This document shows positions 10,221-64,000 of a DNA stretch of 64,000 bases, piece by piece; the first letter of the stretch is position 1, and every line of letters starts with the position of its first letter. Below the pieces are notes generated by a model, which worked only from the letters and a program-made list of their open reading frames with translations, was not told where the DNA came from and did not search any database. A program made the translations under genes and the position numbers. This DNA comes from Endozoicomonas sp. 4G (GTDB taxonomy: Bacteria; Pseudomonadota; Gammaproteobacteria; Pseudomonadales; Endozoicomonadaceae), in assembly GCF_023822025.1 (NCBI RefSeq), contig NZ_CP082909.1, positions 2,408,001-2,472,000 on the forward strand, in the 5' to 3' direction.

Positions 10221-10266
10221 TCCTAATTACCGTGAAAAAATAGGTGGCTGACAGAACGGACGGGGA

Positions 10267-46533: not shown

Positions 46534-46545
46534 ATTTCCCTTCTC

Positions 46546-49320
46546 TTACACCAGCTCGAACTGAGTCTTCAATAACTCAACATTAAGCTTGACGGTTTCA
46601 GAGGCACGATCAATCGATAAAATTGGGTAACCATCCACGTTAAGCAACTTCTGAACGCCTGCCAAAAAACCCCGCATACGTAGCTTGGGGATGCCCAGTG
46701 ATTGAATTAGAACCGTCATCATTAACTGGTTGCCATTGACTTCCAGTAATTGCAGCATTTGAACAAGCTGTTCATCTTTGATGGCAGTGCGCCCGGCCCG
46801 GCTCTTAACCTGCTTGTAAACAGCAGAGTCCAGCAATACTTTCCAATCGTCAGATATATCGGTTGCCGCTGAAGATTCAGCAGTGACAGCAAACATATCA
46901 TCCATAACCTCTGCTTTAGCTTGAGCCTTCTTGCTCTTGGTTTTGCTTGTCACACTGGTTACAGGAGGCGCGACCGGCGTTTCAACGGAAGTTACACCAC
47001 CTTTACCCAGTTTTGTCTGCCACCAGTCAGGTACATATCTGGGAACTTCGCGCCAGCCACCCGGAACTCCCAATGCTCCACCGCTGACATAAATTCCGAG
47101 AGGAATAACCACTTCCTGAAGGCTGCCGCCACCGTGATAGCCCATCTTACGGGAGGTATAACGAACCTTTTCTGACCAGGGCAGAACTACAGACTGATTT
47201 TCTGCGAGAACTCTGGCGCCGGAAACCTTTACCTCCCCAGTCTCAACTTTTGCGGAACCTGGCTTGTAACGTTCACCGCCATTATCTTTACCCTGCCCCT
47301 TCATATCATGATCAAGCACGTGCCCATGATCACTGGTCATAATCACAATACGACCAGATTCTCTGGCGGCTTCCAACACTTGCCTGAGCAAAGCAATGGT
47401 ACCAACTGTCCAGTTCATGGTGAGTTGGGCGTTACTGGAGAGCTGGTCATCAATGGCATTAATGACAACGCCTGTAATCCGATGTTCAGTACCAGCCAGC
47501 ACTGAACGCACTTCATTGGCCAGGGCGCCAGTGCCAGCCTGCTCAAGATCGGCTTTGTGGTAAAGCCTGGGGGGAAACTTGGTTGAAGCCAGATTTTTTA
47601 ACTGACTGTGACCGGCAAATGCTTTTTTCTCATCCACAGCAGTCCCTTCACACAAAGCGCCACTAAACAGAGAGCATCGGCTGGCTTTAGTGATACTAGG
47701 TAGAGTTGAGAGTAATCCCTTAATTGGATTTGACTCTCGTTGCAATTCCAACCAGTTATGTTGAACCACGTCAGAAGCCAGTTCTCGATATACCGCCTGA
47801 CTCATACCATCCAGAACCAGCAATAACACCAGATTTCCTTTTGCCAGTGGGGCAACCAGCTGATCAAGCACCTGTTCTACTGGCAACAGGTCTTTCTGTT
47901 GGTCTCCTCGGGCAATAGCGGGTAGTAGAGCAGTAATGGCCTGATTATGTTGTTCACGACGCTGACATACAGCTTCAGAAAGCTTCTGATAAACCTTGCT
48001 CAAACCTTCATGCACATCGCCCTGCCAGATTTTACTTCGTCCCCAGTCAGCAAAACTGCCATGATCAATGTAATTAGAGAGCAGAAAAGCTGCATCAGGC
48101 ACCTTCCCGTCTTCACCCTGCAACCACTTGCAAAGGCGAATGGCCATGTCTACCCTCATAACTTGTTCTGCGGCAGCTGCGCTACGAGCATTGTTGTGTT
48201 TCTTAAGCTGGCCGAGCAACACCTCTGCTGAATTAATGGACTGTCCTTTGATGCATTTCTCAAGCACTGAGGCCATAGTATCCAAGCGCAACCGAAAACC
48301 ACCCGGCAGAATGTTGGAATAAATCAGTGCTGGTGTCAGATTGAGTGACGCCAGCATTTGCTCAGCCTGACTGAAACTCTGATGAAGCATTGGGTTTTGC
48401 TGTCCCTTCACCGACTGTTCGTTGAGCATCTGCTCAACAAATGTCAAAGCCTGACGTCCGAACATTTCCAGTGTTTCAGAATTAGCGAAGCTTCCACCCA
48501 GATAGCGTTCATTAAACACAGCCCTGAAAGCAATCAGGTTCTGCTCATTAATCAGCTTTTCTCTGGCCTTTAATGCTGATTTACTTTGTTCCAGCAACTC
48601 CCTGTGATACATCACTGAGCAGGCCAGACCAATAGCCAGAAGGTTATCGACCTGCCCCTGTTGACAGATACGCAACACCAACGTTTCAAAATCAGGCAAT
48701 CCCGCCCTCAGCCAATCGCCAAGATGGGTCTTCATCTCTTCAGGCAAAGCAGCATAGGCCGTATCGCACTTCCCTGATAAAGACCACTGGAACAGCGATG
48801 GGAGATCAACATTTTCAGCATGAAAACCCAGCAAAGCACAGACCAGTGCCTGCCAAGCTTTATCCTGGTCAAGCACTTCGCCAAACTGAATTTCATTTTT
48901 GTAGGCGTCGTGGGCACTTAACAATGTTTTGGCAATCCAGCGATACTTAGATCCAGTCAGGCGCGGGTCAATCTGCCGCACCTTTAAAATCTGCTGCAAA
49001 GCACGCCATGGACTGATTCTTTTAGGCTCGTTACGCCAGAGACGAGCCAGCACATCATTCGCCAGACGACTGTGATCGAAAGCCGAAAGCAACACTAGGC
49101 GACAGCTGTTATCACTGCCGCTGTTGCCATGGTCAACCAGCTGCTTACGAATAGCCAGCTCAGACGAACAGTAAACAACCCGTAACCGGTAACCATTCAT
49201 ATCATGAATAATGTCCTGCTCAGCCAAGGCTTCTGGCCAGACCAGCGCTACGCAGTCAGCCTGGCTATCTTGCTCGAAAATCGCCTGCAACTGGTTCAGT
49301 ACCTGGCTGGGAATACTCAT
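46546..49320 (-). CDS. pglZ: BREX type 2 phosphatase-domain protein PglZ
   Basis: PglZ is the hallmark gene of all BREX systems; its core is an alkaline-phosphatase-type domain that binds metal. The 924-residue protein has LVLLLVLDGMSQAVYREL near residue 500, with the first metal Asp, a TSRC-like serine patch (SRCSLFSGALCEG) and VIMTSDHGHVLDHD near residue 660 with the Asp-His pair. The N-terminal 480 residues are helical. Its ATG overlaps the pglY stop by one base (TAATG), with GGAGG ten bases upstream. The C terminus (750-924) is a divergent winged-helix-like region. Confidence 0.92.
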   Translation of the reverse strand: MSIPSQVLNQLQAIFEQDSQADCVALVWPEALAEQDIIHDMNGYRLRVVYCSSELAIRKQLVDHGNSGSDNSCRLVLLSAFDHSRLANDVLARLWRNEPKRISPWRALQQILKVRQIDPRLTGSKYRWIAKTLLSAHDAYKNEIQFGEVLDQDKAWQALVCALLGFHAENVDLPSLFQWSLSGKCDTAYAALPEEMKTHLGDWLRAGLPDFETLVLRICQQGQVDNLLAIGLACSVMYHRELLEQSKSALKAREKLINEQNLIAFRAVFNERYLGGSFANSETLEMFGRQALTFVEQMLNEQSVKGQQNPMLHQSFSQAEQMLASLNLTPALIYSNILPGGFRLRLDTMASVLEKCIKGQSINSAEVLLGQLKKHNNARSAAAAEQVMRVDMAIRLCKWLQGEDGKVPDAAFLLSNYIDHGSFADWGRSKIWQGDVHEGLSKVYQKLSEAVCQRREQHNQAITALLPAIARGDQQKDLLPVEQVLDQLVAPLAKGNLVLLLVLDGMSQAVYRELASDVVQHNWLELQRESNPIKGLLSTLPSITKASRCSLFSGALCEGTAVDEKKAFAGHSQLKNLASTKFPPRLYHKADLEQAGTGALANEVRSVLAGTEHRITGVVINAIDDQLSSNAQLTMNWTVGTIALLRQVLEAARESGRIVIMTSDHGHVLDHDMKGQGKDNGGERYKPGSAKVETGEVKVSGARVLAENQSVVLPWSEKVRYTSRKMGYHGGGSLQEVVIPLGIYVSGGALGVPGGWREVPRYVPDWWQTKLGKGGVTSVETPVAPPVTSVTSKTKSKKAQAKAEVMDDMFAVTAESSAATDISDDWKVLLDSAVYKQVKSRAGRTAIKDEQLVQMLQLLEVNGNQLMMTVLIQSLGIPKLRMRGFLAGVQKLLNVDGYPILSIDRASETVKLNVELLKTQFELV

Positions 49321-52300
49321 TAAGGCTGCACCTCCCGCACTACGGTAAAGGATACGCTCAGTGTGTCACCTTCCTGAAGTTGAGCTTCTAGCTCTTTCAG
49401 TAACTGTTTGGCTTCGACCGCTTTCATATCATTTTTGGTTTCTTCACGAACCACCTTCCTGCCTCGGGTGACCGCAGGCTTAACTGGGTCAGGATTTACC
49501 GGAAGCGGCGGAGGCGTTGGCTTCTGGCGAGTGAGAATAGCGGTAGCTTCAGACTGAGCCTGGCGCAGGACTGAAGACAAAGGGGTTACCAATTCATCAG
49601 CTGCCAGCGCATCGCACACCTTCTTATGAATAGCCAGCGATTCTGCATCACCTGACTCCCAAACCCCTTCCAGCAATTGCCAGTTGTTTTCATCAATAGT
49701 CTGGCTGACAGATTGCGCTGATTTAATACTTCTGGCTAATGCTTCCAGACTGGTTTCAGGAGAAACCTCTGACAGAGCGTTAACCAGATCAGCACTGTCG
49801 GTCTTACCCTGCAGGGTTTCCAAAACAGAAACTGCCAGACGGGCATTATTCATACGATTACACTTCAGATTCTGCTTCAGGCTGTTCAGTTTGGTTTCCA
49901 GATCAACGACCAGCGTATTACAGGCATCCAGATGAATATCCACTTCATCATGCACCTGTTTCTGAAGATCGTTCTGGTTGGCAGCAGTACGAAGCGCATT
50001 CACGGTAACACCAAACAACTTTCCGGCATTTTCCAGTGCCGCCTTCCACACAGCAGGTTCTGCCATATTCTGTTTGATCAGAACCAGTTCATCAGGAATA
50101 TCCTTCAGTACCACATCGGTGTATGGGCCACCATGCAGGCTATAGTCGTACTGGCCTTCTTCAGCAAACACCCTGATCAGCAGGTTCTGAACGGCTTCCG
50201 GCAATCCTCTCGGGCTTGGCAAATCCATAGCTGCCCGAAGTCGTTTAACCGTGATACTGCCGCTTTCACCGTCTTTAGCCAGCTCACGGGTCAAATGCTG
50301 GCACCAGTCCTTCTTAAAGATAAAGTGGTTTTCATGCATATCACCCAACCCCAGGGGCTGAGCAATGGCACGCATTAATGACCGTTTAGCAGTTTCAACA
50401 TTAATGCGACCATGGCTGGCATGTATGGCTTTACGAAGCTCTTCCATCACCTTGCCAAGGTCATGGACCTTCACCTCACAATCAAAGTCCGGGTGTGCAG
50501 GGAACTGGAAGCTCAAAGCCTGACCCAGTAACTGCTCAAACGCTCTGCCAAGATTACTGCCAACAGGCAACAGAGGAGTAAAAGCCGGTTGCAGTGAATA
50601 CACCTGTTGTTCCAGAGGAGTACTGTCATCCAATGAACCCGGCTGAGGTTCGCTGGCACCATACGCCCCCATCAAATAGTCTTTGATACGTTCTTTTAAC
50701 TGGCTTCTTTGGTTTTCCAGTAAGGTTTTAGCCTGAGCACGATCTCGCTGACTTAAGTGACTGCTATAACTTCTTAACGTATCGTCGTTCTTTAAAATCT
50801 CTTTCAGCTTGGCCAGTGTTCCCAAGTCTTTCTGGGCGCTCTGGCTGAAGAAGTAAGGCAACCAGCAAAGGGTATTAGCCACATTGTTGCTGGCTTCAAA
50901 CTCTTCAATACGGGCCTTATCATCCGCTGGAGAATGGTTGTCTTTATCGAACGGGAAATCGACAATGACTCTCCACTCATCGTCCCGGGCTTCAAAAATA
51001 CTAGGGTCCTTGATTTCGCGAATATTCTGGATCATCACCTCGATATTGCGGCGAGTGCCCTTCCAGAGCAGGCTGTGCTCATTAAACAAGCTCTGGTCGT
51101 CTTTTACGCCAAAGGCATCAAATACCAGTTCTTTTACCAGCTGACGCCGAGTGGCCTCATTATCGTGAATCTTGGCCTGTTCGAGAATGCTCTCGGTATC
51201 CACACCAGACAGCTGAATAGCAATCGTCGGATTCGGGTCATCACTGATCTTGATTTCACCAACCTGCCCCGCCCATTTACGACACTTGTTCAACACTTGC
51301 TTTACTTCACCACCAGGAATCGGTGATTTAATGGTGCCGTGGTTCAGGGCTGAAAGTTTATTGGCTGTCAGGTTTTTAAAGCACTCCACCTCTGGCACCA
51401 GTGCCGACAGCAACAGCGTTTTAATCAAACGCATATCGTTAAGGAAGGCACGTTTTCTCGGATCAGAGTGATCCAGACCAGCCAACGCATTGCGCTCAAT
51501 CTGATGCTCGCTTTCCAGCAACGGAATCAGTTTGCGCTCAAACAGGCTCTTGGCATTATCAAAGTGCATACGCATCGCTTCAGAGAAAGGCTCAGCCTCT
51601 GAAGCAATAACATCGTAAAGGTCACCCACCGGGATGACATTACCCAGAGTCAGAGTCTCTCGCTGACTAACCAGCAGCATCAGCATCACTTTCAGGGCAG
51701 TACGTTCACGCTGCAAGGCAGAAGACAGCGCCACCAGTGCCTGCACCAGTGCCGGGCTGAATGGATAGAGCGAACGGAACATTTCTTTATCGCCCTGTTG
51801 GGTCAGCAGGATATCCTGAACTTCCCTGCGATAACGGTCTGTAGCCGCAAAGGAGGCAGCGATCTCGTTTTTTGCCTGTTCACTCACTGGCTTAAGCAAG
51901 CGTTTCTCGGCAATCACCGGCAAGTTACGGTCTTCCAGAGTAATGGTGTGGAAACGACCCTCCCAGTATTTCAGGGAATCACTCAGCACTTCCTGTTCAG
52001 CACCCGTGTACTGATCACCCACAAATTCACGCAGGTCACGCTGACGGGCTATAAAGCTGACCAGAGGCAACGCTCTTGGCTCACTGGCTTCAACCAGTTT
52101 TACCACTTTCTGAATCTCCGTACTGATAAACTGCTGATCCGACAGGCGACTGGCCAGCCAGAGAATCAACTCATCGAGGAACAGAATAACCGCATCGTAT
52201 CCCAAGTCTTTGGCATGCTGGGTCATGACCCGCAAACCCTCATCAAAGGTGACATAGCCGCCACTTTGGGTATTAGCCAGATCAGCAAAAGCACCAAACA

Positions 52301-52994
52301 AAGTGCCAACCAGATCACCTACCAGACGGTTTTTATCTTCCGGGGAAGACTGGCCATTAATCACTGCATCAAAGCTGATGGCATTCCAGCCAGTGGCTAT
52401 CTCGCCCCAACCATCATCATCGCCGGCACTGCTATTTCCATCGTTAACAGCCTTAAAGAAAGCATCGTCACCCAGCAGCTCTCGCTGTTTAACCGCATCA
52501 GCAAACAGACGGTCACTCATATAAAAGCCAGGCACCGGAGCCTCAGGATGCTGTTTCTTAATATAATTAGCGTAACCACCCAACACACCTGATTCGATAC
52601 TGGCTGCCCCGATCATATGGTAAGGAACCAGCAGAATATTTTTGCCCTGAAGCCATTTATCGTTTTTGGCAATAGCTGGAGCCAGCTCAGGAATAGCGCG
52701 AGCCTGTGCATTACCATTCAACAGTAAATTCAGCACCGCCATAAAGTGGGACTTACCACTACCAAAGCTACCGTGCAGGTATGCACCTTTCTGGCGGTTC
52801 TGACTGTTGTCAACCGCGCTCTTTACAAACCCGAGAGCATCGTCAAAGGACTTAGCCAGCTGTGGTGTCACCACATAATCCTGCAGGGTTTGTTTAATGG
52901 CTTCATCACTCGCCAGCCCCTGAGACAGGTTCAGTACAAAATCGCCCCGTTGAACCTTTTCCGGGATGGCGATCAGGTCTTTCATTAATGTCAT
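49320..52994 (-). CDS. pglY: BREX type 2 ATPase PglY (BrxC homologue)
   Basis: PglY/BrxC is a large P-loop ATPase, the other core component of BREX, thought to work with PglX and PglZ. The 1224-residue protein has Walker A GSFGSGKS at residues 75-82 and Walker B VILFLDELILWL near residue 270. The long C-terminal part is helical, ending in a basic PVKPAVTRGRKVVREE segment. ATG 52994 has AGGAAG seven bases upstream. It lies 24 bases from pglX and overlaps pglZ by one base. Confidence 0.93.
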   Translation of the reverse strand: MTLMKDLIAIPEKVQRGDFVLNLSQGLASDEAIKQTLQDYVVTPQLAKSFDDALGFVKSAVDNSQNRQKGAYLHGSFGSGKSHFMAVLNLLLNGNAQARAIPELAPAIAKNDKWLQGKNILLVPYHMIGAASIESGVLGGYANYIKKQHPEAPVPGFYMSDRLFADAVKQRELLGDDAFFKAVNDGNSSAGDDDGWGEIATGWNAISFDAVINGQSSPEDKNRLVGDLVGTLFGAFADLANTQSGGYVTFDEGLRVMTQHAKDLGYDAVILFLDELILWLASRLSDQQFISTEIQKVVKLVEASEPRALPLVSFIARQRDLREFVGDQYTGAEQEVLSDSLKYWEGRFHTITLEDRNLPVIAEKRLLKPVSEQAKNEIAASFAATDRYRREVQDILLTQQGDKEMFRSLYPFSPALVQALVALSSALQRERTALKVMLMLLVSQRETLTLGNVIPVGDLYDVIASEAEPFSEAMRMHFDNAKSLFERKLIPLLESEHQIERNALAGLDHSDPRKRAFLNDMRLIKTLLLSALVPEVECFKNLTANKLSALNHGTIKSPIPGGEVKQVLNKCRKWAGQVGEIKISDDPNPTIAIQLSGVDTESILEQAKIHDNEATRRQLVKELVFDAFGVKDDQSLFNEHSLLWKGTRRNIEVMIQNIREIKDPSIFEARDDEWRVIVDFPFDKDNHSPADDKARIEEFEASNNVANTLCWLPYFFSQSAQKDLGTLAKLKEILKNDDTLRSYSSHLSQRDRAQAKTLLENQRSQLKERIKDYLMGAYGASEPQPGSLDDSTPLEQQVYSLQPAFTPLLPVGSNLGRAFEQLLGQALSFQFPAHPDFDCEVKVHDLGKVMEELRKAIHASHGRINVETAKRSLMRAIAQPLGLGDMHENHFIFKKDWCQHLTRELAKDGESGSITVKRLRAAMDLPSPRGLPEAVQNLLIRVFAEEGQYDYSLHGGPYTDVVLKDIPDELVLIKQNMAEPAVWKAALENAGKLFGVTVNALRTAANQNDLQKQVHDEVDIHLDACNTLVVDLETKLNSLKQNLKCNRMNNARLAVSVLETLQGKTDSADLVNALSEVSPETSLEALARSIKSAQSVSQTIDENNWQLLEGVWESGDAESLAIHKKVCDALAADELVTPLSSVLRQAQSEATAILTRQKPTPPPLPVNPDPVKPAVTRGRKVVREETKNDMKAVEAKQLLKELEAQLQEGDTLSVSFTVVREVQP

Positions 52995-53018
52995 TGCTTA
53001 TCTTCCTTTCTTCCCGGC

Positions 53019-56000
53019 TCAGGCTTTTGCCTTGGTTTTGCGCTTGCGAGTTTTCTTTACGACAGGCGGCGTCCAGCTCAAAAGATCATCCCGCGTGATA
53101 TCCAGTTCCTGCAACTCTTCATTCAGCCAGCCTTCAAAGTAATCGCCCATTTTCAGCTCGAACTCCGGGTCCAGCTCATTGTGCCACTGTTTCAGCCAGG
53201 GGATCAGTTCTTCAATGGCCACTAACATTGGCATCAGCTGCTGGCCGGTAAAACCATCTTCTTCTTTACGAGCCTGATACCAGCCTACAATTGCCAGTGC
53301 CCGTTGCAGATGGTTCATGCCTGCCCAGCCAATGACAGGGGTTGTATCACCGGACTTTTCACACCCAGGCAGACTGAAGAAACGTTCTTTTGGTACATCC
53401 AGCTTGCCACGCAGAGGCCAGTAGGCAGCCTTGGCAAAATCCTTGGTAGCGTATTTAGGCGGCACAGGAATTTCACCAACTTGCTTCAGCTTCAGGTGTT
53501 CAGCGGCTTCTTTGCTGAGATAATCCTTGTGCTCTTCCGGCAGTTCGGTGCGGGCATCAATAACATCTTCTGCCCTTTGTTTATCCCAGGTTTCCTGCCA
53601 AGCACGGAACTTGGTGATACCTGAAGGTTTGTAGCGAGCCGGAGCCATTTGGGGAATGGATTCGCCTGTCACCAGCTCAACAATTAGTTTCTGGATATCG
53701 AACAATTCGTTGCCGGTGTAGTGCATAGCGACCTTGCTAAAGTCTGAATCGTTACGTACACGGTCAGCCAGACCTGCACTGGTGATCAGCTGGTCATCGT
53801 GCTTCAAGTACTGGTTTTCCAGACGATCCAGCATCCATTCCTTACAGGCTGTTTTCAGTTCATCAGCCCGTGCAGCTTTGTTGAACAAACCTTGTCGTCC
53901 GATCCAACGGCGTTTGTAATGAGGGTCTTCGATAACCCGAATATCCTTGATTAACTTAATGGCTTCCATACGTTGACGCCATTTGTTCTGCATGGCTTCT
54001 GGCCAGTGAGCAGGTATATCAGCAGGTACTTCAAAGCCATCCTGGTTCAGTTGAGCTAGGATTTCAAAAGGTCGTTGACCGGCTTCCAGATCAACATCCA
54101 TCCATGGTTCGATATCAGCCAGGAGTTTTTTATCACAGAGACCAAAAGCCCAGTAGCAAGTCCAGTCGATTTCTTCTTGAAGAAGAACCATCTGGCAACG
54201 TAGCTCATTTCTTTCCTTTTGATACTTGTCCCACACATTTTCTATTCTTGCATTTGTCGAAAGTGCTGTTTTTAGAGCCTCTGCAACAGAAAGATGCCTT
54301 TGTGCTGTTGCTAGCTCCTCGATGTTTCCAGCAAATTGTTGTAGTTTTGTTCCTATTTCAGTGTTAAAACCCTCAGGAATAGGAAGGTGGATTAATTGAC
54401 TACCTACAAACTCATATGGAACCTTTGAAACAAACTCTACTCGAACTCCATCCCCCCCAGTCAGCTGCTTCTGGTGACTTACTTGCTTCATCCAGAAACC
54501 AACAAGTGAGCTATTGAAGTATCCAAGCAGTTCAACATATTGTTCCCTGCTAGCATCACCATCTTTGAATCTAATGATGGGAGCAGAACGATTGAATGCC
54601 ACTAATGAATCACAAAGGTAAAAATGATTATGACTCGCAACAAAAGCAAAACTTATGAGTGGTTTTCCATTCAGTCTGTTGCTATAGACCTCTCTGGGTT
54701 TCCACCAAGGAATACCCTTACTCTCAACGAGCGCTCCAAACATTTTTCTATTTCTTAATGGAGCCTTGTAAGGCCACAACCTGGCTATATATCCTGTGAG
54801 TTCTACATCTGGCAGTTGAGTACCGAAATTATCCATCGGCCATACACAAACTTCAGAACTTTCAAAACTCCAATCTCTTAAGTATTCCCCGATTCCATAA
54901 CTTACAAATAAGTTACACCCTTGACGCAAAGCAGACTGACGATCAGAGACAAAAGACTCATCATCGCCAGTGATTACCAAATATCCTGTATCGATATCCA
55001 AGTCTTTGAGCGTTTTGACTGCCCTGCTCTCTATAGTGGCTTTAACCTCAACAGCACCACCACCGGAGAGACTCCAAGGATGTTTTTCAAAAATAGATCT
55101 ATCTTTATCATCAACAGAAATATATTCGTTTTCTTGTCCTACAAACTCAAGCTGGTCAACTATCGAGCGCCAGACCTTGCCATTTGATGCATCTTCCGGG
55201 GTCTCAGGCTCAGCACGAATCCCCAAGGCAACCCTAACGGGTACATTTCGATCTGCTCGCCTATTGCGAGCAAATAAAATCACTGTTGGTGTACCATGGC
55301 CAGGAATATAAGCACCGGAAGTATCAATGATGTGTGTTAGGTCTCTGTTCTTCAAATAGTCCTGGATTAGTTTCGTGCCAAACTCTCTTTTCATAAAGCT
55401 ATTGGCAGTAATCATGCCCATAAAGCCAGCAGGCTGACCATCTTTAGCTGAAACTGTCAGATCAAAAAAACGCTCAGTAAAAGGTACGCCAAGAGAGTAC
55501 TGTCGATGACATGTGGGGTATTTCACTCTATAAGCTTGATTGAGTGCTTTATCTCGCACGACAATGTAAGGCGGATTCCCAACCACCGCATGATACTGCT
55601 GCCCCAAAATCTTGCTCAGCTTCTCCTTATCTTCCACTTCCAGCACATGCTTAATGGGATCATCTTCTTCCATCAGATGCACCTGAATACCACTGGTACC
55701 TTCAAACCGTCGCCCATGAAGCAGAGAGTCACCCACCGCCAGATTAAAGTGAAAATCCGGCGCCTGTCGCATGGATTGGGTATGAGTCACCTTCATCGCC
55801 GCAATCAGCAACCGGAAGCGGCAAATTGCGATAGCGTAGGGGTTAAGGTCAACACCATACACAGAATTCAGCGCGCGCTGAGCCAGTACACGAGTTTGCT
55901 CACCCGGCTCCCGGCGGCACCATTCATTAAAGATGCGCTCAAACCCTGTCAGCAGAAAGTGACCAGAACCACAGGTGGGGTCGATCATTCGAAGATCTTT

Positions 56001-56678
56001 CAGGCCAAAGGTATCCTGCGCTTTTTCCAGGGTGTAATCGAGGATGAAGGACTCGACAAATTCAGGCGTTTGCAGCAATGCGTACTTTTTCTGAACGGCA
56101 ATAGAGAGGTCTTGATAGAGATCACCCAAAAAACGAGTGTCCCATTCTGGATCCGTAAAGTCGTAAATCAGCTCACCGCTTTCAGGATCTATCTTCTGGA
56201 AAAAATCCACCAGCAGTTTGGCGCCATCCGACGATACTGGAATATGCCATAGCGGGTTATGCTGATGATCCAGCAGTTCTTTAATGGCTGGCAGTTTTTC
56301 CAGCTCTTCAAACAGGCTCAGCAGGTAGTCCCGCTCACCATGGGTTGGGTTCTCGTTAAAGTGAACCTCGATCCGGTCTTTGGCCAGCTTCAGGCGATCA
56401 CCAGGGCCTGCCAGCATGGGCGCATCCAGCAGCTGATTATCTTCCAGAAAACGGACAAAGACACAGGTCAGAATCCATGCCACAGCCGCTTGGGTAATCT
56501 GGCCTTCAAGCCAGGCGACAAAGTGTTCAGCGGTTCTTTTGGCGTCAACGGCCTTTTGATACTCTTCCTTCAGATGCTTGGTCAGATCGTCTCTGGACTC
56601 ACTGTAGTCAAAAATATCTTTTTCGATTTTGGGAAGTTGACGCTGTAAATCTTTCAGCAGTTCCTGACGGTTAATCAT
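53019..56678 (-). CDS. pglX: BREX type 2 adenine-specific DNA methyltransferase PglX
   Basis: PglX is the N6-adenine methyltransferase that marks host DNA at the BREX site and is also required for defence. The 1219-residue protein has the SAM-binding motif DPTCGSGHFLL near residue 235 and the catalytic NPPY (VVGNPPYIVV) near residue 368. The region from about residue 373 to 830, after NPPY, probably holds the target recognition domain and looks AT-richer by eye than both ends. The basic tail VKKTRKRKTKAKA closes it. It is followed by pglY and preceded by pglW, the type 2 order. Confidence 0.93.
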   Translation of the reverse strand: MINRQELLKDLQRQLPKIEKDIFDYSESRDDLTKHLKEEYQKAVDAKRTAEHFVAWLEGQITQAAVAWILTCVFVRFLEDNQLLDAPMLAGPGDRLKLAKDRIEVHFNENPTHGERDYLLSLFEELEKLPAIKELLDHQHNPLWHIPVSSDGAKLLVDFFQKIDPESGELIYDFTDPEWDTRFLGDLYQDLSIAVQKKYALLQTPEFVESFILDYTLEKAQDTFGLKDLRMIDPTCGSGHFLLTGFERIFNEWCRREPGEQTRVLAQRALNSVYGVDLNPYAIAICRFRLLIAAMKVTHTQSMRQAPDFHFNLAVGDSLLHGRRFEGTSGIQVHLMEEDDPIKHVLEVEDKEKLSKILGQQYHAVVGNPPYIVVRDKALNQAYRVKYPTCHRQYSLGVPFTERFFDLTVSAKDGQPAGFMGMITANSFMKREFGTKLIQDYLKNRDLTHIIDTSGAYIPGHGTPTVILFARNRRADRNVPVRVALGIRAEPETPEDASNGKVWRSIVDQLEFVGQENEYISVDDKDRSIFEKHPWSLSGGGAVEVKATIESRAVKTLKDLDIDTGYLVITGDDESFVSDRQSALRQGCNLFVSYGIGEYLRDWSFESSEVCVWPMDNFGTQLPDVELTGYIARLWPYKAPLRNRKMFGALVESKGIPWWKPREVYSNRLNGKPLISFAFVASHNHFYLCDSLVAFNRSAPIIRFKDGDASREQYVELLGYFNSSLVGFWMKQVSHQKQLTGGDGVRVEFVSKVPYEFVGSQLIHLPIPEGFNTEIGTKLQQFAGNIEELATAQRHLSVAEALKTALSTNARIENVWDKYQKERNELRCQMVLLQEEIDWTCYWAFGLCDKKLLADIEPWMDVDLEAGQRPFEILAQLNQDGFEVPADIPAHWPEAMQNKWRQRMEAIKLIKDIRVIEDPHYKRRWIGRQGLFNKAARADELKTACKEWMLDRLENQYLKHDDQLITSAGLADRVRNDSDFSKVAMHYTGNELFDIQKLIVELVTGESIPQMAPARYKPSGITKFRAWQETWDKQRAEDVIDARTELPEEHKDYLSKEAAEHLKLKQVGEIPVPPKYATKDFAKAAYWPLRGKLDVPKERFFSLPGCEKSGDTTPVIGWAGMNHLQRALAIVGWYQARKEEDGFTGQQLMPMLVAIEELIPWLKQWHNELDPEFELKMGDYFEGWLNEELQELDITRDDLLSWTPPVVKKTRKRKTKAKA

Positions 56679-56732
56679 AAGGTTGCTCTATATAAAAACG
56701 GGGCAAAACACAAAATTAAAACGACAGCAGAC

Positions 56733-59700
56733 TTATGCCTGCTGCTGTATAGAATCGTTAGAAGCTTCCAGCCAGACGGATGCAATACGGGCAAATTCAG
56801 CAGCGCCAGTGCCACGGGGAATGATAGTGCCATCAATAACCGCAGCGGTTCTCTGGGCATCAGCGGCGACCAGAAGAATCATGCCATGAACTTCACGACT
56901 TACAGAGTCAGCATTCAACAGATGCTGACGCAGTTCATTCAACCAGCTGTTCACCAGATCATAACGGGCAATCAGTCCGGGTTCGGTCAGAAGCACTGGC
57001 TGACCCGCTGACTTGATTTCGTTGGCCATAGCGGGCAGCACTTTGCTGACCAGCATTTGCAAACGCCCCCAGTCTACAGAGTTCTTCTGGGCAGCATCGG
57101 CTTTTAGCACCACATCCCAGCGAGGCGCTTTTGGCATACCGTTGAACAGCTCTTGCAGATGGTGGAACAGCAATTCATCAAAGCTGATATGTTTAAGCGG
57201 ATAATCCTTACACAACTTGTCACGGGCAGTGACCATCAGCTGAGGTTTAACGGTGAGTGCCAGAAAACGGGAGGTTTCGATAGCCGTTGCTATCTCCTGT
57301 TCCAGACGTTTTACTTCCTCAAGAGTGGTGGTATCCACATCACCCAGCTGTGAGTGCTCCGTTGCGGTACGGCTTTTCGATGACAGGCTGGTCAGCCCTG
57401 CCTGCGGCAGACAGTAAGCGCCTTTTTTGCCATCAGGACGGATGAACTGGCTATCCCATTGGAAACCAATTTCCAGCCCCTGAACCAGAGTGTCCAGCTG
57501 CGGTCGTCCTGGCAGAGGTTCAGCTTCTGGGTAGCGACCATGAATTCGGGTCTGAACTTCTTCCACGCTCAGGGCTTTGCTGCCCAGCAGTGCGCCCTGA
57601 GCCAGTTCAAGAGTCCGGTCAGCCTTCATCTCTTTTGGGTAGAACTCAGCACGGCTGGACAGTGCGGATTTTTGAGAAGAAGCGGCCGCCAGACTCAGCA
57701 GGCGCTGGTTGCTCATACCAGTAAATGAAGATGGCGCAACCACCATGCTGACTTTACGCAGAGCCTGAACCGGAGAAAGCAGCGGTACTCGTTCAGCGCA
57801 TTCATCAGCAATTTCACCAAGAGCAGCCGCATAATCTGCCAGCTCTTCACCCAGTTCTTCACGGTTGTCGGCAATGATAATCCGGTTACCGTGACGACGC
57901 AGAATCCAGCGAGGATTCTGTTTGGAAAGCTCGGTTTCTACCGCAGCACGACAGACTGCCTGAGACCAGCGTTCACGCAAGGGAGAGTCTTGAACAGAAC
58001 CACGACGGAGAAGAATTACTTCTGATAATTCAATGGCTGTCATAACGCCGCCATGCTCATCCAGAAACTTTTCGATATCGTTTCTTAATTCAGTGATGGC
58101 CTGGGTTTTACCCCATTTGGTCATCAGCTTTTCATGGATGATGCGAGCATCACTGGTGTCCAGGTTGGCCTCACCACTTAAATGCACGAGGTTTGGCCAG
58201 TGGATAGTGCGAACACCTCTGGGGGCTTCAGAATCCAGACGTCCCAGAAATTCATTCAGAAAACGTTGACGGGCTGGATCAGTAGCTTTGGTTACTTTTG
58301 GCATGACGAAGCGAAACAAGCGGTCAACACTTGCCAGTGCGGAACCTTCGCCTTTCACCAGGGCTTCGATTTTCACCTCTGCGCCCAGACGTTCCTGCAG
58401 GTTGCCGATGGCATCGGAGAGTTCTTTACGGGTGTTGGTGCCAACACCTGCCATGCGAACCAGCTCATTGCGGGGCAGACGAATCAGTTCAGATACTTTG
58501 TTGATATTCAAACGACTGAGGGTGTCCAGTGCCTGAACCGACAAATCCAGCAAACCCACCTGGGTGGTAAGCTGAGCTTCTGCAATTGGACAGGTTTTCT
58601 GCTTTTTACCGGTTGGGTGCGAGGTTTGCTTGCTGACCAGATGGAAGATCATCTTCCAATCTCTTAGCATTTCACCAGCGCTGGCGAAACGCTGACCGAT
58701 ATCCCTTGCCAGAGCTTTCTGGAAGAATTCGGCCATGGCGTCACGCACCACAGGATCAAAAACACGACGTTCGACTTCCAACTCACCTTCAATCAGATTT
58801 GGCAGCCCTTTGGAGGATGTCCAGCCCGGCAATGCGCCTGCGGCCATTTCGTAAAGTGTCAATGCACAGGCAAAACGCTCCGCATGGTCATCCCAGCGAC
58901 GGCGACCCGGATCACGAATGAACGGATCCATATAAGCGGCTGTACCCGCACTGTAATTATCTACTGAGGTGTTGGAGAGAGAGAAATCAAACAGCACCAA
59001 GTGTAACTGTTTACCCTGCATAATCAGACCAATATTTTCTGGCTTGATATCCCGGTGATTAATTCCCTGATCTTCTAAATGACAGAGTGCGCCCAACAGA
59101 TCATCACCAAAACGCTCCAACAACTCCAGTTGAACTGCACCGTACTCTCTCAAGCGTTTTGCCAGAGTACCGTCCGCAGCATAATGAATAATCAGACCCG
59201 TATGGCCTGCCAGTTCAACCGTATCATAGTGAGCAATAACCGCTGAATGCCGTAGCTTGGCAAGGGTTGCGCCTTCACAGCGAAGACGTTTGTTCTGAGC
59301 AGGTTCTAAGGCCAGCTTAAGAACTCGCTCAACGCCATGATGTTTAATCAGGAATGCTTTAGAACTGGCTCCTTTACCCAATTCTTGAATAATTTCGATA
59401 CCACCTTCCAGCACATCGCCTTTGCGAGCCTCAATGGGGTTGCTGCTGCGGAATGTTTCTGGTCTGGCCAGTTCTTCTTCAACCTTTAAAAGGTGGTCAA
59501 AGAATTCATCCATAGAACCAATGCGGTTATCTGGATTAGGGTGAGTGGCGTACTGGATCAGATACTGCAATTCTGTTCCTGCACCATTAAGCTCGTTGGT
59601 TATCAGCAGACCGTTTGTGCGAGCGAGCTTATCCTGAAGTTCAATATCATTATCAGCCGGTTTTTTCCCAGTAAACAGGTGGTAGGCAATAGCGCCCAGC

Positions 59701-60902
59701 GAGAAAATATCCAGCAGAACTCCATCAGTATCACTCTGAGAGTGACACTCAAGAGCCACATAAGGACCGGCCTCTTCCTGTACCAGCTGACTCATATGAC
59801 TGATGATGCTTAACTGCTGCGTCTCGGTTTCGTAGGTTCGCTCTGCCATAAACCAGTTGGCAATTTTTATGGCATAACCTTCCAGTTCATCTATCCGGAT
59901 ATAAATGCTTTGCGGACTGAGAACCCGGTGACACAGTTTATGACGATGAGCATACCGCACAGTCTCAGCAATCAGTTTAAGAACCTTGAAAGCATCCTGG
60001 AGATGAAGATGGCTATTGCCCAGCTCCAGAAGCAAATGATCAAGCCGCAAGAAAGATTGATCGTAATCGTAAACCAGTGCCGGATCATGTTCATGCTGCT
60101 GGTAATCCTTTGCCCTCAGGATGCCCGGATGTTCAATACCTTCCAACATCTTGAATTCATGACGGGCAGCTCTTTGCAAACGTTCAGCATCTGCCGGAGG
60201 CTTGCCGTACGTCAGATAAATACGTACCCGTCGTTTAACATTCAGCTCTTCATGATATGCAAGCCATTCCTGATAGTGGTCGGCTTCATCAAGAAGCTCA
60301 CCCAGGACGTAGAGACCTACACGACGTGAGCGAACAGATTCCTTGATTCCTGCCTCTTCCATGGCTCTTGCAACTGTTTTGGCTCTGGATTTGTCCAGTC
60401 TCGGCCAGCGCCAGTCAACATCTATTTCAGTGATCTCTTTGATAAAGTCTTTACGGGTGTAAACCTTGGCTCTTGCATGGCCTTCCAGACTGTTGATGAC
60501 ATTTTCAGCAGAAAGGAAAACCAGTGAACTCAAAAATGGAATGCCTTCAGCTCTGGCCGATGGTTGCAGCTTCAGCAGAGATGCCAGTTTCTTGGCTTTA
60601 CGGTCGGTAAGAATACGAGGATTGTCAAATAGCTTTCGACTACCGTCGGGTTTATGCCAGATCCAGGTTCCGGAATCGCCTGAAATTTCGCCAGGGTGTG
60701 ACTTAATCTCCACAAGGTAAAGCCCCTTTGGGGTCAATAGCATCAGGTCGATTTCGTTAATGGAGCCGTCCTGGGCGATAAACTCGAAGTTAGCCCATGC
60801 CCGGTAGGGTTCGTGATCTGGCAGCTGTTCCTTAACATAAGCCAGAGCTTCCCGCTCCCAGACAAACTCGGACCGAGTCAGCTGACGCCAGTTTTTATCC
60901 AT
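56733..60902 (-). CDS. pglW: BREX type 2 serine/threonine kinase PglW, with NERD domain and tandem kinase domains
   Basis: PglW is the protein kinase specific to type 2 BREX (Streptomyces Pgl). The 1389-residue protein starts with a NERD nuclease-related domain (about 15-190: NEIDLMLLTPKGLYLVEIKS). A first kinase-like domain (about 230-475) has HRVLSPQSI in place of HRDLKPEN and lacks a DFG motif, so it looks like a pseudokinase. The second (about 500-765) is complete: GKGASSKAF, VLKLA, HRDIKPEN near 614 and FDFSLS near 640. A helix-hairpin-helix-like segment (LIRLPRNELVRMAGVG) lies near 800, and a helical C terminus follows. ATG 60902 has AGGAAG upstream and overlaps the regulator stop by 8 bases. 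Confidence 0.93.
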   Translation of the reverse strand: MDKNWRQLTRSEFVWEREALAYVKEQLPDHEPYRAWANFEFIAQDGSINEIDLMLLTPKGLYLVEIKSHPGEISGDSGTWIWHKPDGSRKLFDNPRILTDRKAKKLASLLKLQPSARAEGIPFLSSLVFLSAENVINSLEGHARAKVYTRKDFIKEITEIDVDWRWPRLDKSRAKTVARAMEEAGIKESVRSRRVGLYVLGELLDEADHYQEWLAYHEELNVKRRVRIYLTYGKPPADAERLQRAARHEFKMLEGIEHPGILRAKDYQQHEHDPALVYDYDQSFLRLDHLLLELGNSHLHLQDAFKVLKLIAETVRYAHRHKLCHRVLSPQSIYIRIDELEGYAIKIANWFMAERTYETETQQLSIISHMSQLVQEEAGPYVALECHSQSDTDGVLLDIFSLGAIAYHLFTGKKPADNDIELQDKLARTNGLLITNELNGAGTELQYLIQYATHPNPDNRIGSMDEFFDHLLKVEEELARPETFRSSNPIEARKGDVLEGGIEIIQELGKGASSKAFLIKHHGVERVLKLALEPAQNKRLRCEGATLAKLRHSAVIAHYDTVELAGHTGLIIHYAADGTLAKRLREYGAVQLELLERFGDDLLGALCHLEDQGINHRDIKPENIGLIMQGKQLHLVLFDFSLSNTSVDNYSAGTAAYMDPFIRDPGRRRWDDHAERFACALTLYEMAAGALPGWTSSKGLPNLIEGELEVERRVFDPVVRDAMAEFFQKALARDIGQRFASAGEMLRDWKMIFHLVSKQTSHPTGKKQKTCPIAEAQLTTQVGLLDLSVQALDTLSRLNINKVSELIRLPRNELVRMAGVGTNTRKELSDAIGNLQERLGAEVKIEALVKGEGSALASVDRLFRFVMPKVTKATDPARQRFLNEFLGRLDSEAPRGVRTIHWPNLVHLSGEANLDTSDARIIHEKLMTKWGKTQAITELRNDIEKFLDEHGGVMTAIELSEVILLRRGSVQDSPLRERWSQAVCRAAVETELSKQNPRWILRRHGNRIIIADNREELGEELADYAAALGEIADECAERVPLLSPVQALRKVSMVVAPSSFTGMSNQRLLSLAAASSQKSALSSRAEFYPKEMKADRTLELAQGALLGSKALSVEEVQTRIHGRYPEAEPLPGRPQLDTLVQGLEIGFQWDSQFIRPDGKKGAYCLPQAGLTSLSSKSRTATEHSQLGDVDTTTLEEVKRLEQEIATAIETSRFLALTVKPQLMVTARDKLCKDYPLKHISFDELLFHHLQELFNGMPKAPRWDVVLKADAAQKNSVDWGRLQMLVSKVLPAMANEIKSAGQPVLLTEPGLIARYDLVNSWLNELRQHLLNADSVSREVHGMILLVAADAQRTAAVIDGTIIPRGTGAAEFARIASVWLEASNDSIQQQA

Positions 60903-61128: not shown

Positions 61129-61591
61129 GAAGAGAGAGGCCTTTCTGGGTGGTTGGTGGTGAGCTTGAGGGTGTATTGTGCTATAAAATTTTGATCTTTA
61201 GTAGAGTATTTTGATGACATTAAAGGGTAAATTTGTTTTTAAATAGCATGTTAGATATACAACTTGTCACGTATGATTTCTGCCGATCGACACTCAAATT
61301 TTTTGATAAACGAGTGTGCAAACTTCAGATTGGTCTGGTCAAAGCCGATGAACATTAACCCGATGTCCTGTGTGATGCTGAACGATGGTGCCTTTTAGAC
61401 ATATTTGCCTCCTTGTAGACCGGAGGCTTATGATTTCATAGCAGGGATTAGGGTGATAGATCATGGGTTTTGAATGCACTTACTTATGACTTAGTCTGAA
61501 CTAAACTATTAACCGGACAGTTATTACCTAAGGGTTATAACGTGGAACTATGGAGTTGCTCTTTAGCTTGAAATTAAGGCTACAGGACCTT
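61129..61591. promoter_or_regulatory. 463-base divergent control region between BREX and the PIN-ankyrin operon
   Basis: Both flanking operons must start here. The stretch next to the regulator is AT-rich (61190-61260), but I see no consensus promoter strong enough to place. A short palindrome TTAGT-CTGA-ACTAA lies near 61492-61505 upstream of the PIN gene. A 34-codon minus-strand frame (61251-61355, MFIGFDQTNLKFAHSFIKKF) is open and protein-like, extending without a start to about 61390. It may be a decayed gene piece; I do not call it a gene. Confidence 0.4.
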
Positions 61592-62584
61592 ATGAATTAT
61601 AAGAAAATAATCTTTGATACCAATGTGTTACTTATAAATCCGGAACTACTCAATCGCTTTTCACAACGGATATTTCTACCAAAAACCATCCTTGATGAGC
61701 TGGATTATCGTAAAACCAAAAGAGAGCATCAGGAACAGGCTCAACTGGCACTTCATCATATTGAGAGAAATAACATACGTGCCAGACAAGCAGCATCTCA
61801 GGGCAGCCAGCGAAATGATGAGCGTATTCTGACCGAGGCGCTGGCATGCTGTAGCAATAATCAGTTACTGCTGGTTTCTAACGATGTTGGGATGCGTAAC
61901 CGCGCAAAAGGCATGGGTATTGAGAGCGAATCGTTAGAAGCCTTCCTCCAATCGGTGACAGAAAGCAGTCATCGTTTAACCCCTGAGCGGGAGCGAATGT
62001 TCCGCCTGCTGACGGAAGAAGATTTTGAACCGGTGCGTCTCTGGATACGGCAGAGTAGCGATAACCATTTCAATTTCTACCTTAAGGATGGGTATACGCC
62101 ACTGATCGACTGTATCCGGAAAAAGCGGTTCAAGGCCTTGGGGTTTCTGCTGCAACAATCTTCTATTGATCTGGATATGCGTGATCAGGCGAAGCTGAAA
62201 ATGACTGCTTTCTGTCATGCCGCCCAGCGCAGACAGATTAAAACCATGGATCAGCTGATTGAGTGCGGCGCCAACCCTCATCTGACAGCTCAAGGCAGAA
62301 ACCGGGGGAATTCGCCGTTACTGATTGCCGCCTGGGATGGAGCGCTGAATGTGATTCGTCATATCTGCTCCCACGATAAGATCGCTTTCAGCATTAATCA
62401 GGCGGATAACAATGGTTTCACACCGCTGATAAAAGCAGCCATTAAAGGTCATGAACCTATAGTGCGCTACCTGTTGGAACTGGAAGCCGATGTAATGATT
62501 CGGGATCGGGATGACCGGCTCGCGATTGACTATGCCATCGAAAATAACCATCAGAGTATTGTGCAACTTTTAAAGGAAGTTTAA
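61592..62584 (+). CDS. PIN-domain protein with C-terminal ankyrin repeats
   Basis: The 330-residue protein begins MNYKKIIFDTNVLLINPELL at ATG 61592, with AGGA close upstream. Residues 1-125 match the PIN nuclease domain of PhoH-type proteins: IIFDTNVLL with the first Asp, LPKTILDELDY, a NDERILTEAL block, and LLVSNDVGMRNRAKGMGI with the last acidic residue. PIN domains cut RNA. From about residue 145 to the end are four or so ankyrin-like repeats (DGYTPLIDCIRKKR, NSPLLIAAWDGA, NGFTPLIKAAIKGH), usually protein-binding. I know no family with exactly this pair. It is followed after 2 bases by the radical SAM gene. Confidence 0.85.
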   Translation: MNYKKIIFDTNVLLINPELLNRFSQRIFLPKTILDELDYRKTKREHQEQAQLALHHIERNNIRARQAASQGSQRNDERILTEALACCSNNQLLLVSNDVGMRNRAKGMGIESESLEAFLQSVTESSHRLTPERERMFRLLTEEDFEPVRLWIRQSSDNHFNFYLKDGYTPLIDCIRKKRFKALGFLLQQSSIDLDMRDQAKLKMTAFCHAAQRRQIKTMDQLIECGANPHLTAQGRNRGNSPLLIAAWDGALNVIRHICSHDKIAFSINQADNNGFTPLIKAAIKGHEPIVRYLLELEADVMIRDRDDRLAIDYAIENNHQSIVQLLKEV

Positions 62585-62586
62585 AC

Positions 62587-63687
62587 GTGATTGAGGTAGT
62601 TGACCCGACTATGATACCGCTGATTCCGGTGGATTCTGTTGTGGAGCAAGTAGAGAGAATCTGTATTTCCGTCAATACCGTTTGTAATCTGGGTTGCGAT
62701 TATTGCTACTTTTTCCATCCGGAAAATCGGGTCGAAAAAAGCAAGCCCTTAAGTGGCGACGAGATTTTCACCATTCTCGAAAAGAGCCTGCTGTATCACC
62801 TGGACTTTGGCTTTGAGAAAAAAATCAAAATCAACTTTGTAGGCAGTGGCGAACCGCTGATTCACTGGACGAATATCCGGGATGGTGTTGCCGCCTTCCA
62901 TAAGGCTTATCCGGAACAGCAATCCATCAAGTTTTACACCGTGACCAATGCAACACTGGTGACTCCTACTATTGCGAAAGAAATGAAACAGCTTGGCATT
63001 GTGCCGAGTGTCTCCGTGGATGGACCTAAAGTTATCCATGACCGTCATCGGCTGGATCATCAGGGGAAAGGTTCATTTGAACGGGTGATGGCGGGCATTG
63101 AAATCCTGAGAAGTACAGGTTTCGATGTGGTCATTAATACGACCTTAACCCGTGACCTGCTTGATGGTCTGGATGCTTATGTTGCTTTCATTAAGGCCTC
63201 CAGCTTTACCAAGGTGATTTTTGACCGGCTTGTGGATACGCCTGATTCCGTTATGGAGATTAGCTACGAGGAGTACTACCGGTTTCTTCAGGATATTCAT
63301 CAGAAATTTATTGATGCCGGACTTCATGATGTGGAAATTGGCAACCTTGAAGCTTACCGCCGGAACTTTGAAGGCAGGCCAGACAAGGTTTGCACAATGT
63401 TTGGCGGCAGTTGCGGCGCTGGCAGTAATTTTGTGATTTACATGGGCCGTGAGGTTTACCCATGTGGTCGTATGTTTGGTAAACCGCAATGGCTGCTAGG
63501 GAATATAGACGACTCCATTCATGTGTTTCCGGAGCGAATGAAACGGCACTGGCCGGCCCGCGAAGATTGCAAGACCTGCAGCGTCGCCAATGATTGTGTG
63601 CGGGACTGTCTGCTGGAATACCATACTCCGGATTATTCGTGCGACTCTCGTAAGTCCTTCTTGTCTACAATGAAGGGCGTTCTGTAA
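62587..63687 (+). CDS. Radical SAM/SPASM enzyme
   Basis: The 366-residue protein starts at GTG 62587, with AGGAAG eight bases upstream inside the previous gene. C33, C37 and C40 (CNLGCDYC) bind the radical SAM 4Fe-4S cluster, followed by FVGSGEPL and VSVDGP. The C terminus is a SPASM-type auxiliary cluster domain with at least seven Cys (CTMFGGSCG, YPCGRMF, CKTCSVANDC). It resembles anaerobic sulfatase-maturase or peptide-modifying enzymes, but no precursor peptide is visible. It overlaps the next start by one base. Confidence 0.85.
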   Translation: MIEVVDPTMIPLIPVDSVVEQVERICISVNTVCNLGCDYCYFFHPENRVEKSKPLSGDEIFTILEKSLLYHLDFGFEKKIKINFVGSGEPLIHWTNIRDGVAAFHKAYPEQQSIKFYTVTNATLVTPTIAKEMKQLGIVPSVSVDGPKVIHDRHRLDHQGKGSFERVMAGIEILRSTGFDVVINTTLTRDLLDGLDAYVAFIKASSFTKVIFDRLVDTPDSVMEISYEEYYRFLQDIHQKFIDAGLHDVEIGNLEAYRRNFEGRPDKVCTMFGGSCGAGSNFVIYMGREVYPCGRMFGKPQWLLGNIDDSIHVFPERMKRHWPAREDCKTCSVANDCVRDCLLEYHTPDYSCDSRKSFLSTMKGVL

Positions 63688-64000
63688 TGGTGACCAAACC
63701 GCTCCGTATTGGTATTTATGGGGTTTCTGGTGTTGGTAAAACGACCCTGACTCAACGGCTGGAAAAGTATTCACATTCAGTACAGGTGATAGATGGCTCC
63801 CGGGTAATTGATGCTGTATCTGAGGGTGGGCTGGCAGTGTTTAAACGCAAGAGCCTTCAGGAAAAAGCCAAAGACCGTTTCAGGGCGATCGACTATTTTC
63901 AGAGTGTCTTTGTGAAAGCAGAGAAGCATTTGGTGATTGCTGGCCATTACAGCTTTCTGAAAGTGGATGGGTTTGAAGATGCCTGGACTGATGCGGATGC
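63687..64000 (+). CDS. P-loop NTPase or kinase-like protein, 3' end outside window
   Basis: The frame starts at ATG 63687, overlapping the radical SAM stop by one base (TAATG), and runs to the window edge for 104 codons. Walker A GVSGVGKTT lies at residues 12-20, after a short strand (RIGIYG). VIDGSRVIDAV and HLVIAGHYSFL follow, which suggests a small-molecule or nucleotide kinase rather than an AAA protein. Start-stop coupling says it acts with the radical SAM enzyme. The substrate cannot be told from this fragment. Confidence 0.75.
   Translation, partial: MVTKPLRIGIYGVSGVGKTTLTQRLEKYSHSVQVIDGSRVIDAVSEGGLAVFKRKSLQEKAKDRFRAIDYFQSVFVKAEKHLVIAGHYSFLKVDGFEDAWTDAD

Follow-up and report, generated by a model that had tools for sequence, protein, structure and literature searches.

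A rare four-gene operon joining a PIN-ankyrin protein to a radical SAM enzyme, a kinase-HAD fusion and a phosphoribosyltransferase, with a predicted role in anti-phage defense

At one end of a 64,000-nucleotide stretch of the genome of Endozoicomonas sp. 4G (contig NZ_CP082909.1, positions 2,408,001 to 2,472,000; hereafter the window) begins an operon that encodes, in order, a PIN nuclease domain fused to ankyrin repeats (PIN-ankyrin), a radical S-adenosylmethionine (SAM) enzyme, a fusion of an adenylate-kinase-fold domain with a HAD phosphatase (kinase-HAD) and a phosphoribosyltransferase (PRTase). This four-gene set is rare but widespread and is categorically new as a gene system, its function being a prediction. 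We favor, at about even confidence, the explanation that it is a mobile anti-phage system, probably acting by abortive infection, with a PIN ribonuclease under the control of enzymes that process nucleotides.

Organization of the operon

The PIN-ankyrin gene (61592..62584, + strand; 330-aa product) is read from the ATG at 61592, with an alternative start at 61550; the former fits the relative in a Shewanella locus (L024), which starts at nearly the same place. After a gap of 2 bases comes the radical SAM gene (62587..63687, + strand; 366 aa, with a SPASM-type C-terminus), whose stop codon overlaps by 1 base the ATG of the kinase-HAD gene at 63687. Coordinates and Pfam matches thus bear out the three genes and the two junctions described in an earlier, sequence-only reading of the window. 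That reading took the set to be a three-gene system, but only the 5' part of the kinase-HAD gene (63687..64000, + strand) lies in the window, and the fourth gene was hidden past its edge. The extension past 64000 that had been proposed as a check completes the kinase-HAD gene and then uncovers the PRTase gene and a GmrSD-family pair. In the source genome (G000, a single 6.0-Mb contig), the kinase-HAD gene ends at window-equivalent 64868 (beyond the window, such coordinates are positions in locus L003, the window's own, plus 60000), giving a product of 393 aa, and a uracil phosphoribosyltransferase (UPRTase)-like PRTase of 195 aa follows at zero spacing (window-equivalent 64869-65456; PF14681, 1.1e-26).

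Distribution and co-inheritance

Searches with the kinase-HAD or the radical SAM protein as query yielded 22 distinct loci from Pseudomonadota, Spirochaetota, Bacillota and viral contigs, and in 19 of them all four genes are open and in order. The exceptions are L041, cut by a contig end after the radical SAM gene; L022, with a split kinase-HAD gene; and L044, whose PIN-coding part is interrupted by a frame change. The rarity of the set is plain from the individual searches. The kinase-HAD protein matched one of 369 genomes of the class at E<=1e-15, the source genome itself, and two of 398 genomes of the phylum at E<=1e-8, the second (G760) having an operon of identical gene content and order. 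A further locus, in G882, came from 140 genomes of the family of G760, and viral contig L012 from IMG/VR. Scanning species genomes with a four-row kinase-HAD alignment gave 177 pattern matches and 10 confirmed loci, nine with the four genes in order (L022 among them, with its split gene). The tenth, in Thiothrix (L025), is a lone P-loop frame and was excluded from the 22; L019, identical to L011 in length and gene coordinates, was counted together with it. At E<=1e-30 the window's radical SAM enzyme matched only its own genome among 57 (own and relatives).

As these collections began largely from the kinase-HAD protein, searches were repeated with the radical SAM profile alone (E<=1e-30) to avoid that starting point. 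They matched one of 369 class genomes (the source genome; same draw as above), five of 247 in the family of a Vibrio genome (G936; two already known), three of 216 in the class of a Clostridia bacterium (G939; one already known) and three of 179 in the phylum of a Treponema genome (G938; one already known). In all seven new loci a PIN-ankyrin frame lies directly upstream of the radical SAM gene (with its PIN part split in L044), and the operon enzyme stands well apart from other radical SAM proteins, scoring 1e-112 to 1e-153 against 1e-18 or worse for the next best in 12 of 13 matching genomes or records. The sequence-only reading had proposed a single undescribed, defense-like system, and had named homologs lying mostly apart from PIN-ankyrin genes as the observation that would count against it. 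The neighbor was instead found beside every match examined, so the unity of the system is upheld, with a larger gene set than had been claimed. The same finding led us to discard the idea of a metabolic operon that happens to have a PIN neighbor.

A further viral scan added three loci (L045-L047), each with all four genes. Other searches drew blanks: kinase-HAD tblastn against collections of plasmid and phage records, tblastn with the window's radical SAM enzyme against plasmids (E<=1e-25), single-protein viral scans, and a distant-mode DNA search of E. coli genomes with the L017 operon, which copies below about 65-70% identity would escape. Three viral matches (L013-L015) are radical SAM proteins at 24% identity, and L013, on inspection, has no such operon. 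This last contig carries four radical-SAM-like genes close together, as judged by eye (L013:6870-11179), which are unrelated to the operon.

The four genes are tightly packed and inherited together. In 20 measured loci, with some start codons set by homology, junctions range from a 14-base overlap to a 13-base gap, apart from larger overlaps in L008 (38 bases), L011 (35), L016 (38), L034 (62, taking the longest frame) and L044 (23), and wider gaps in L023 (861) and L044 (96). The L023 gap holds a gene for a phosphatase-like PHP-domain protein (L023:9114-9989), between the radical SAM gene and a fused kinase-HAD-PRTase gene. Distance matrices of the four proteins correlate at 0.937-0.965 over 16 loci, a level to which shared host ancestry contributes and which none of 2000 label permutations reached. 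In a tree of the concatenated proteins from the 22 loci, the window copy groups with Shewanella L024, both having a longer SPASM end and lacking the N-terminal XRE-type helix-turn-helix (HTH) that the PIN-ankyrin protein bears in most lineages. A large HTH-bearing group unites gammaproteobacteria, phage contig L012 and Spirochaetota L020 and L043; a Bacillota/viral group comprises L021, L023, L041, L042 and L045-L047, and L044 stands apart.

The PIN-ankyrin protein and its upstream element

The first protein belongs to the PIN-domain nucleases by its Pfam score (PIN_4, 6e-17; 62.6 bits against a gathering threshold of 21.9) and its four acidic residues, and its repeats match Ank_2 (5e-23); against PDB sequences the PIN part has no relative (best E 0.13). 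All four catalytic acids are retained in 21 of 21 primary copies. Two loci have, beside the intact protein, an extra PIN-ankyrin copy with degenerate PIN acids (L023:5128-6546; L046:6477-7769), and in L046 the HTH sits on the degenerate copy while the active one lacks it. This suggests that the roles of regulator and nuclease may have been split, the ankyrin part acting as sensor in each.

In eight of 21 loci, 113-121 bases 5' of the start codon, lies the element TTACA-N3-TGTAA-N8-TACA (T or G at the first position), which has no match in 692,970 background bases from these loci. The core by itself, TACA-N3-TGTA, occurs in nine of 21 against six times in the background. The eight loci represent about four lineages (four belong to closely related Vibrio and two share a family), and the pattern was chosen by eye from the same upstream stretches, so that its count describes rather than tests it. 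The element would fit binding by the HTH of the PIN-ankyrin protein, which would make it an operator.

The three enzymes

The radical SAM protein (PF04055, 6e-17) retains its CX3CX2C cysteines and three further cysteines of the SPASM region in 22 of 22 loci, and a fourth SPASM-region cysteine in 16. Among solved structures its profile lies nearest to 5wgg and the anaerobic sulfatase maturase 4k37. It scores below the cut-offs for the SPASM maturases themselves (131.9 against 349.45 bits for anaerobic sulfatase maturase and 128.7 against 340 for PapB), by which the window protein is a relative of these families rather than a member. The kinship raises a rival, protein maturation, in which the enzyme would modify a residue of the PIN-ankyrin or kinase-PRTase protein to produce an armed or restrained form, leaving the sensing of nucleotides to the other enzymes. 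SPASM enzymes usually modify residues, and the neighbors in NCBIfam and PDB are of the sulfatase maturase, PapB and CteB types. Within 500 bases of the operon, no small frame that could encode a precursor peptide is conserved across clades; on this account a ribosomally synthesized and post-translationally modified peptide cluster was rejected, and the substrate would have to be an operon protein. Yet six of the 22 enzymes lack the fourth cysteine, and the modification gives the kinase, HAD and PRTase domains no task. We consider such maturation unlikely but not negligible.

A different rival starts from the likeness to loci of prokaryotic viperins (pVips), whose biology is taken here as general background: the enzymes would make an antiviral nucleotide that stops phage polymerases, and the PIN-ankyrin protein would only regulate or serve as a back-up. 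A radical SAM enzyme next to a nucleotide kinase in a defense setting does recall pVip loci, for which PADLOC has kinase-associated models, and weak matches exist (8e-14 in PADLOC; 54.2 bits in NCBIfam for the L012 enzyme). The latter score is far below the viperin cut-off (180 bits, NF038283), viperin is not among the best 25 of 63 NCBIfam families for the window enzyme, and unlike pVip loci the operon has a SPASM-type end together with HAD, PRTase and PIN-ankyrin components. Strict retention of the PIN acids is also more than a mere regulator would need, and we give this proposal only a slim chance.

In place of the kinase-like NTPase of the sequence-only reading, the third protein proves to be a domain of the adenylate kinase fold fused to a HAD phosphatase. 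Searched whole, it has a P-loop kinase at its N-terminus (AAA_17, 6e-11) and a HAD-type domain at its C-terminus, with the P-loop lysine and the Asp-x-Asp-x-Thr and lysine of the HAD domain conserved in 20 of 20. A P-loop kinase followed by a HAD phosphatase is also the order in Pnkp, so the fusion could act, as Pnkp does, on RNA ends left by the PIN nuclease. Foldseek places Pnkp1 (4xrp) only 40th, with a TM score of 0.25 and a root-mean-square deviation of 18; adenylate kinase and SerB match the two domains far better, for which reason RNA repair was rejected as first choice. The absence of Pnkp from the 50 entries listed in a VIA-align comparison is uninformative by itself. RNA cutting and repair would moreover leave the radical SAM enzyme and PRTase unexplained, and we regard it as exceedingly improbable.

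The PRTase falls in the Pfam UPRTase family (PF14681, 94 against 27 bits) and retains Arg80, Gly82, Asp123, Asp186, Arg190 and Phe192 in 21 of 21; the window strain's protein scores 45.8 bits against the 208.35 of the housekeeping upp equivalog cut-off. In L021 and L023 it forms one polypeptide with the kinase-HAD protein. Such fusion is expected of a pathway enzyme and speaks, with the invariant PIN acids, against the PRTase being the toxin and the PIN part its regulator. PRTases are proposed as effectors in DprA-PRTase and in some retron systems, in the sections available of PMC9122126, but for this operon the idea is very improbable.

Genomic neighborhood

The operon lies beside a BREX operon (43109..60902, - strand) that diverges from it and is complete by PADLOC names (BrxHI, BrxD, PglZ, BrxC/PglY, PglX, PglW), as the sequence-only reading had held; we take its type to be type 2. 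On the other side, 170 bases after the PRTase gene and on the strand of the operon, are two GmrSD-family genes (window-equivalent 65627-68916; L003:5627-8916). One carries DUF7834, the other a GmrSD C-terminal domain, and they may form a type IV-like restriction pair of their own. About 88 bases 5' of the operon (window 61396-61484) recur at 82% identity at G000:C1:5413536-5413622, within what by eye is a run of similar membrane-enzyme-like genes in tandem, and are a small dispersed repeat.

Known defense genes adjoin four of the 22 loci: BREX and GmrSD in the window (L003), DrmB (2e-88) and DrmC (8e-76) in L023, HsdM, HsdS, a UG5-nitrilase-type reverse transcriptase and Drt1b in L024, and a retron-type reverse transcriptase (4e-75) in L008. 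Six others lie on phage, satellite-like or integrative and conjugative element (ICE)-like elements. In L012 the operon sits between terminase and portal genes; L017 has VapE, an HTH_17 protein and an integrase nearby (satellite-like), and L021 a relaxase and an integrase (ICE-like); a capsid gene is near in L045, holin and lysin genes precede the operon in L046, and L047 has serine recombinases. About half of the loci thus have a mobile or defense context. Weaker cases are L016 (SNF2/PLD helicase and a weak AriA/PtuA-like ATPase) and L032 (IS200-like transposase).

These surroundings also bear on the possibility of mobile-element addiction, with a PIN toxin, autorepression by the HTH and the enzymes as antitoxin forming a toxin-antitoxin-like module that serves mainly to retain its element in the cell, and with defense a by-product or absent. 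The combination of PIN, XRE-type HTH and operator-like repeat, together with the frequency of mobile elements around the loci, is of the expected kind. Three conserved enzymes, on the other hand, far exceed the needs of an antitoxin, none of the 19 complete loci has a small antitoxin gene in its four-gene order, as a VapBC-like type II system would, and four loci adjoin unrelated defense systems. The open PIN gene beside a split kinase-HAD gene in L022, a single draft genome, argues mildly against the enzymes being an obligatory antitoxin. Addiction strikes us as quite unlikely.

Two side observations concern the flanks. A NERD-domain gene lies 3' of the operon by Pfam in L042 (160-1278) and L046 (11504-12676), with a similar one by eye in L045 (4998-5978) and L047 (12101-13165); in this clostridial/viral group it is perhaps an accessory gene. 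Two copies of one regulator-like gene, a short one of 180 aa (L008:4238-4780) and a full one of 333 aa (9325-10326), flank the G760 operon, as if insertion had duplicated host DNA.

A predicted mechanism and its precedents

The favored explanation, a defense system with enzymatic control of a ribonuclease, would work as follows. The PIN-ankyrin protein would be the effector, a ribonuclease held inactive until a trigger, and in most lineages its XRE-type HTH would also repress the operon through the upstream operator. The PRTase, kinase-HAD and radical SAM enzymes would constitute one pathway, in which the PRTase may couple a pyrimidine-type base to phosphoribosyl pyrophosphate or take a base off, the adenylate-kinase-fold domain would phosphorylate the nucleotide so formed, the HAD domain would take phosphate off again, and the radical SAM enzyme would perform a radical modification of the nucleotide. 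Phage takeover of nucleotide metabolism would then disturb the level of the product, switching the ankyrin-PIN protein and leading to RNA cleavage. As to the sign of control, we slightly favor activation of the PIN domain by the enzymes over its restraint. The broad scheme of the sequence-only reading, in which ankyrins sense, the radical SAM enzyme and kinase modify and PIN kills, remains an inference. The most far-reaching version, less likely than not, is an immune pathway with a new signal: a radical-SAM-modified pyrimidine nucleotide, built by the PRTase and charged or discharged by the adenylate kinase and HAD domains, is bound by the ankyrins and switches both the PIN ribonuclease and, through the HTH, transcription of the operon.

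Several points weigh against this explanation. The nearest named relatives of the radical SAM enzyme are peptide- or protein-modifying SPASM enzymes rather than nucleotide enzymes, and the window copy and L024 lack the upstream element as well as the HTH. Four of the six mobile loci (L012, L045-L047) were drawn from a viral collection, which makes their context partly a matter of construction. Ten of the 22 loci have neither defense nor mobile neighbors, although three of these (L011, L041, L042) are short contigs, and flanks were mostly judged by eye; the context frequencies are raw counts from these loci. Finally, L022 and L044, in which opposite ends of the set are split, imply that the parts are not strictly inseparable, unless these are assembly errors.

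The proposed logic has precedents. In the excerpted account of Clover (CloA-CloB), a nucleotide made by a partner enzyme restrains an effector that senses phage-altered nucleotide pools (PMC12265719); as far as that account goes, the likeness is one of logic only, Clover consisting of a dNTPase and a nucleotidyltransferase, with no protein shared. A PIN nuclease has been validated in defense (DS-3), and HAD phosphatases occur in defense with a role given as unknown (portions of PMC13092281). DS-3 and VapC-type toxins resemble our system in having a PIN ribonuclease effector, but DS-3, as described there, is one protein, whereas the PIN domain of our loci comes joined to ankyrin repeats and linked to three enzymes. 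DprA-PRTase, described from P2-like phages in the available part of PMC9122126, likewise places a PRTase in phage-borne defense; our loci have no DprA, and their UPRTase-family PRTase is coupled to kinase-HAD, radical SAM and PIN-ankyrin proteins.

The Ter-associated module combines a PRTase with HAD enzymes, and a nucleoside-like metabolite is their proposed product. We noticed no Ter proteins or ATP-grasp enzymes in our loci, which instead have the radical SAM enzyme, the adenylate kinase fold and PIN-ankyrin. In PADLOC-DB 2.0.0 no model covers the four genes: the kinase-HAD and PRTase proteins (window strain, L012 and L046) match none of its families, and the PIN-ankyrin and radical SAM proteins give partial, generic matches. 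No family in Pfam, NCBIfam, PADLOC or PHROGs spans the whole kinase-HAD protein or names the set, and open-access full-text literature yielded no description of it, PMC10853773 and PMC8195603 dealing with other systems in their accessible parts.

Being compact and co-inherited, the four genes are directly testable. If the favored explanation is true, they would constitute a widespread but rare immune system, likely missed by E. coli-based screens, in which abortive infection by a ribonuclease is tied to a pathway dedicated to nucleotide modification. SPASM-type radical SAM chemistry would thereby enter immunity, perhaps with a new signaling or antiviral nucleotide.
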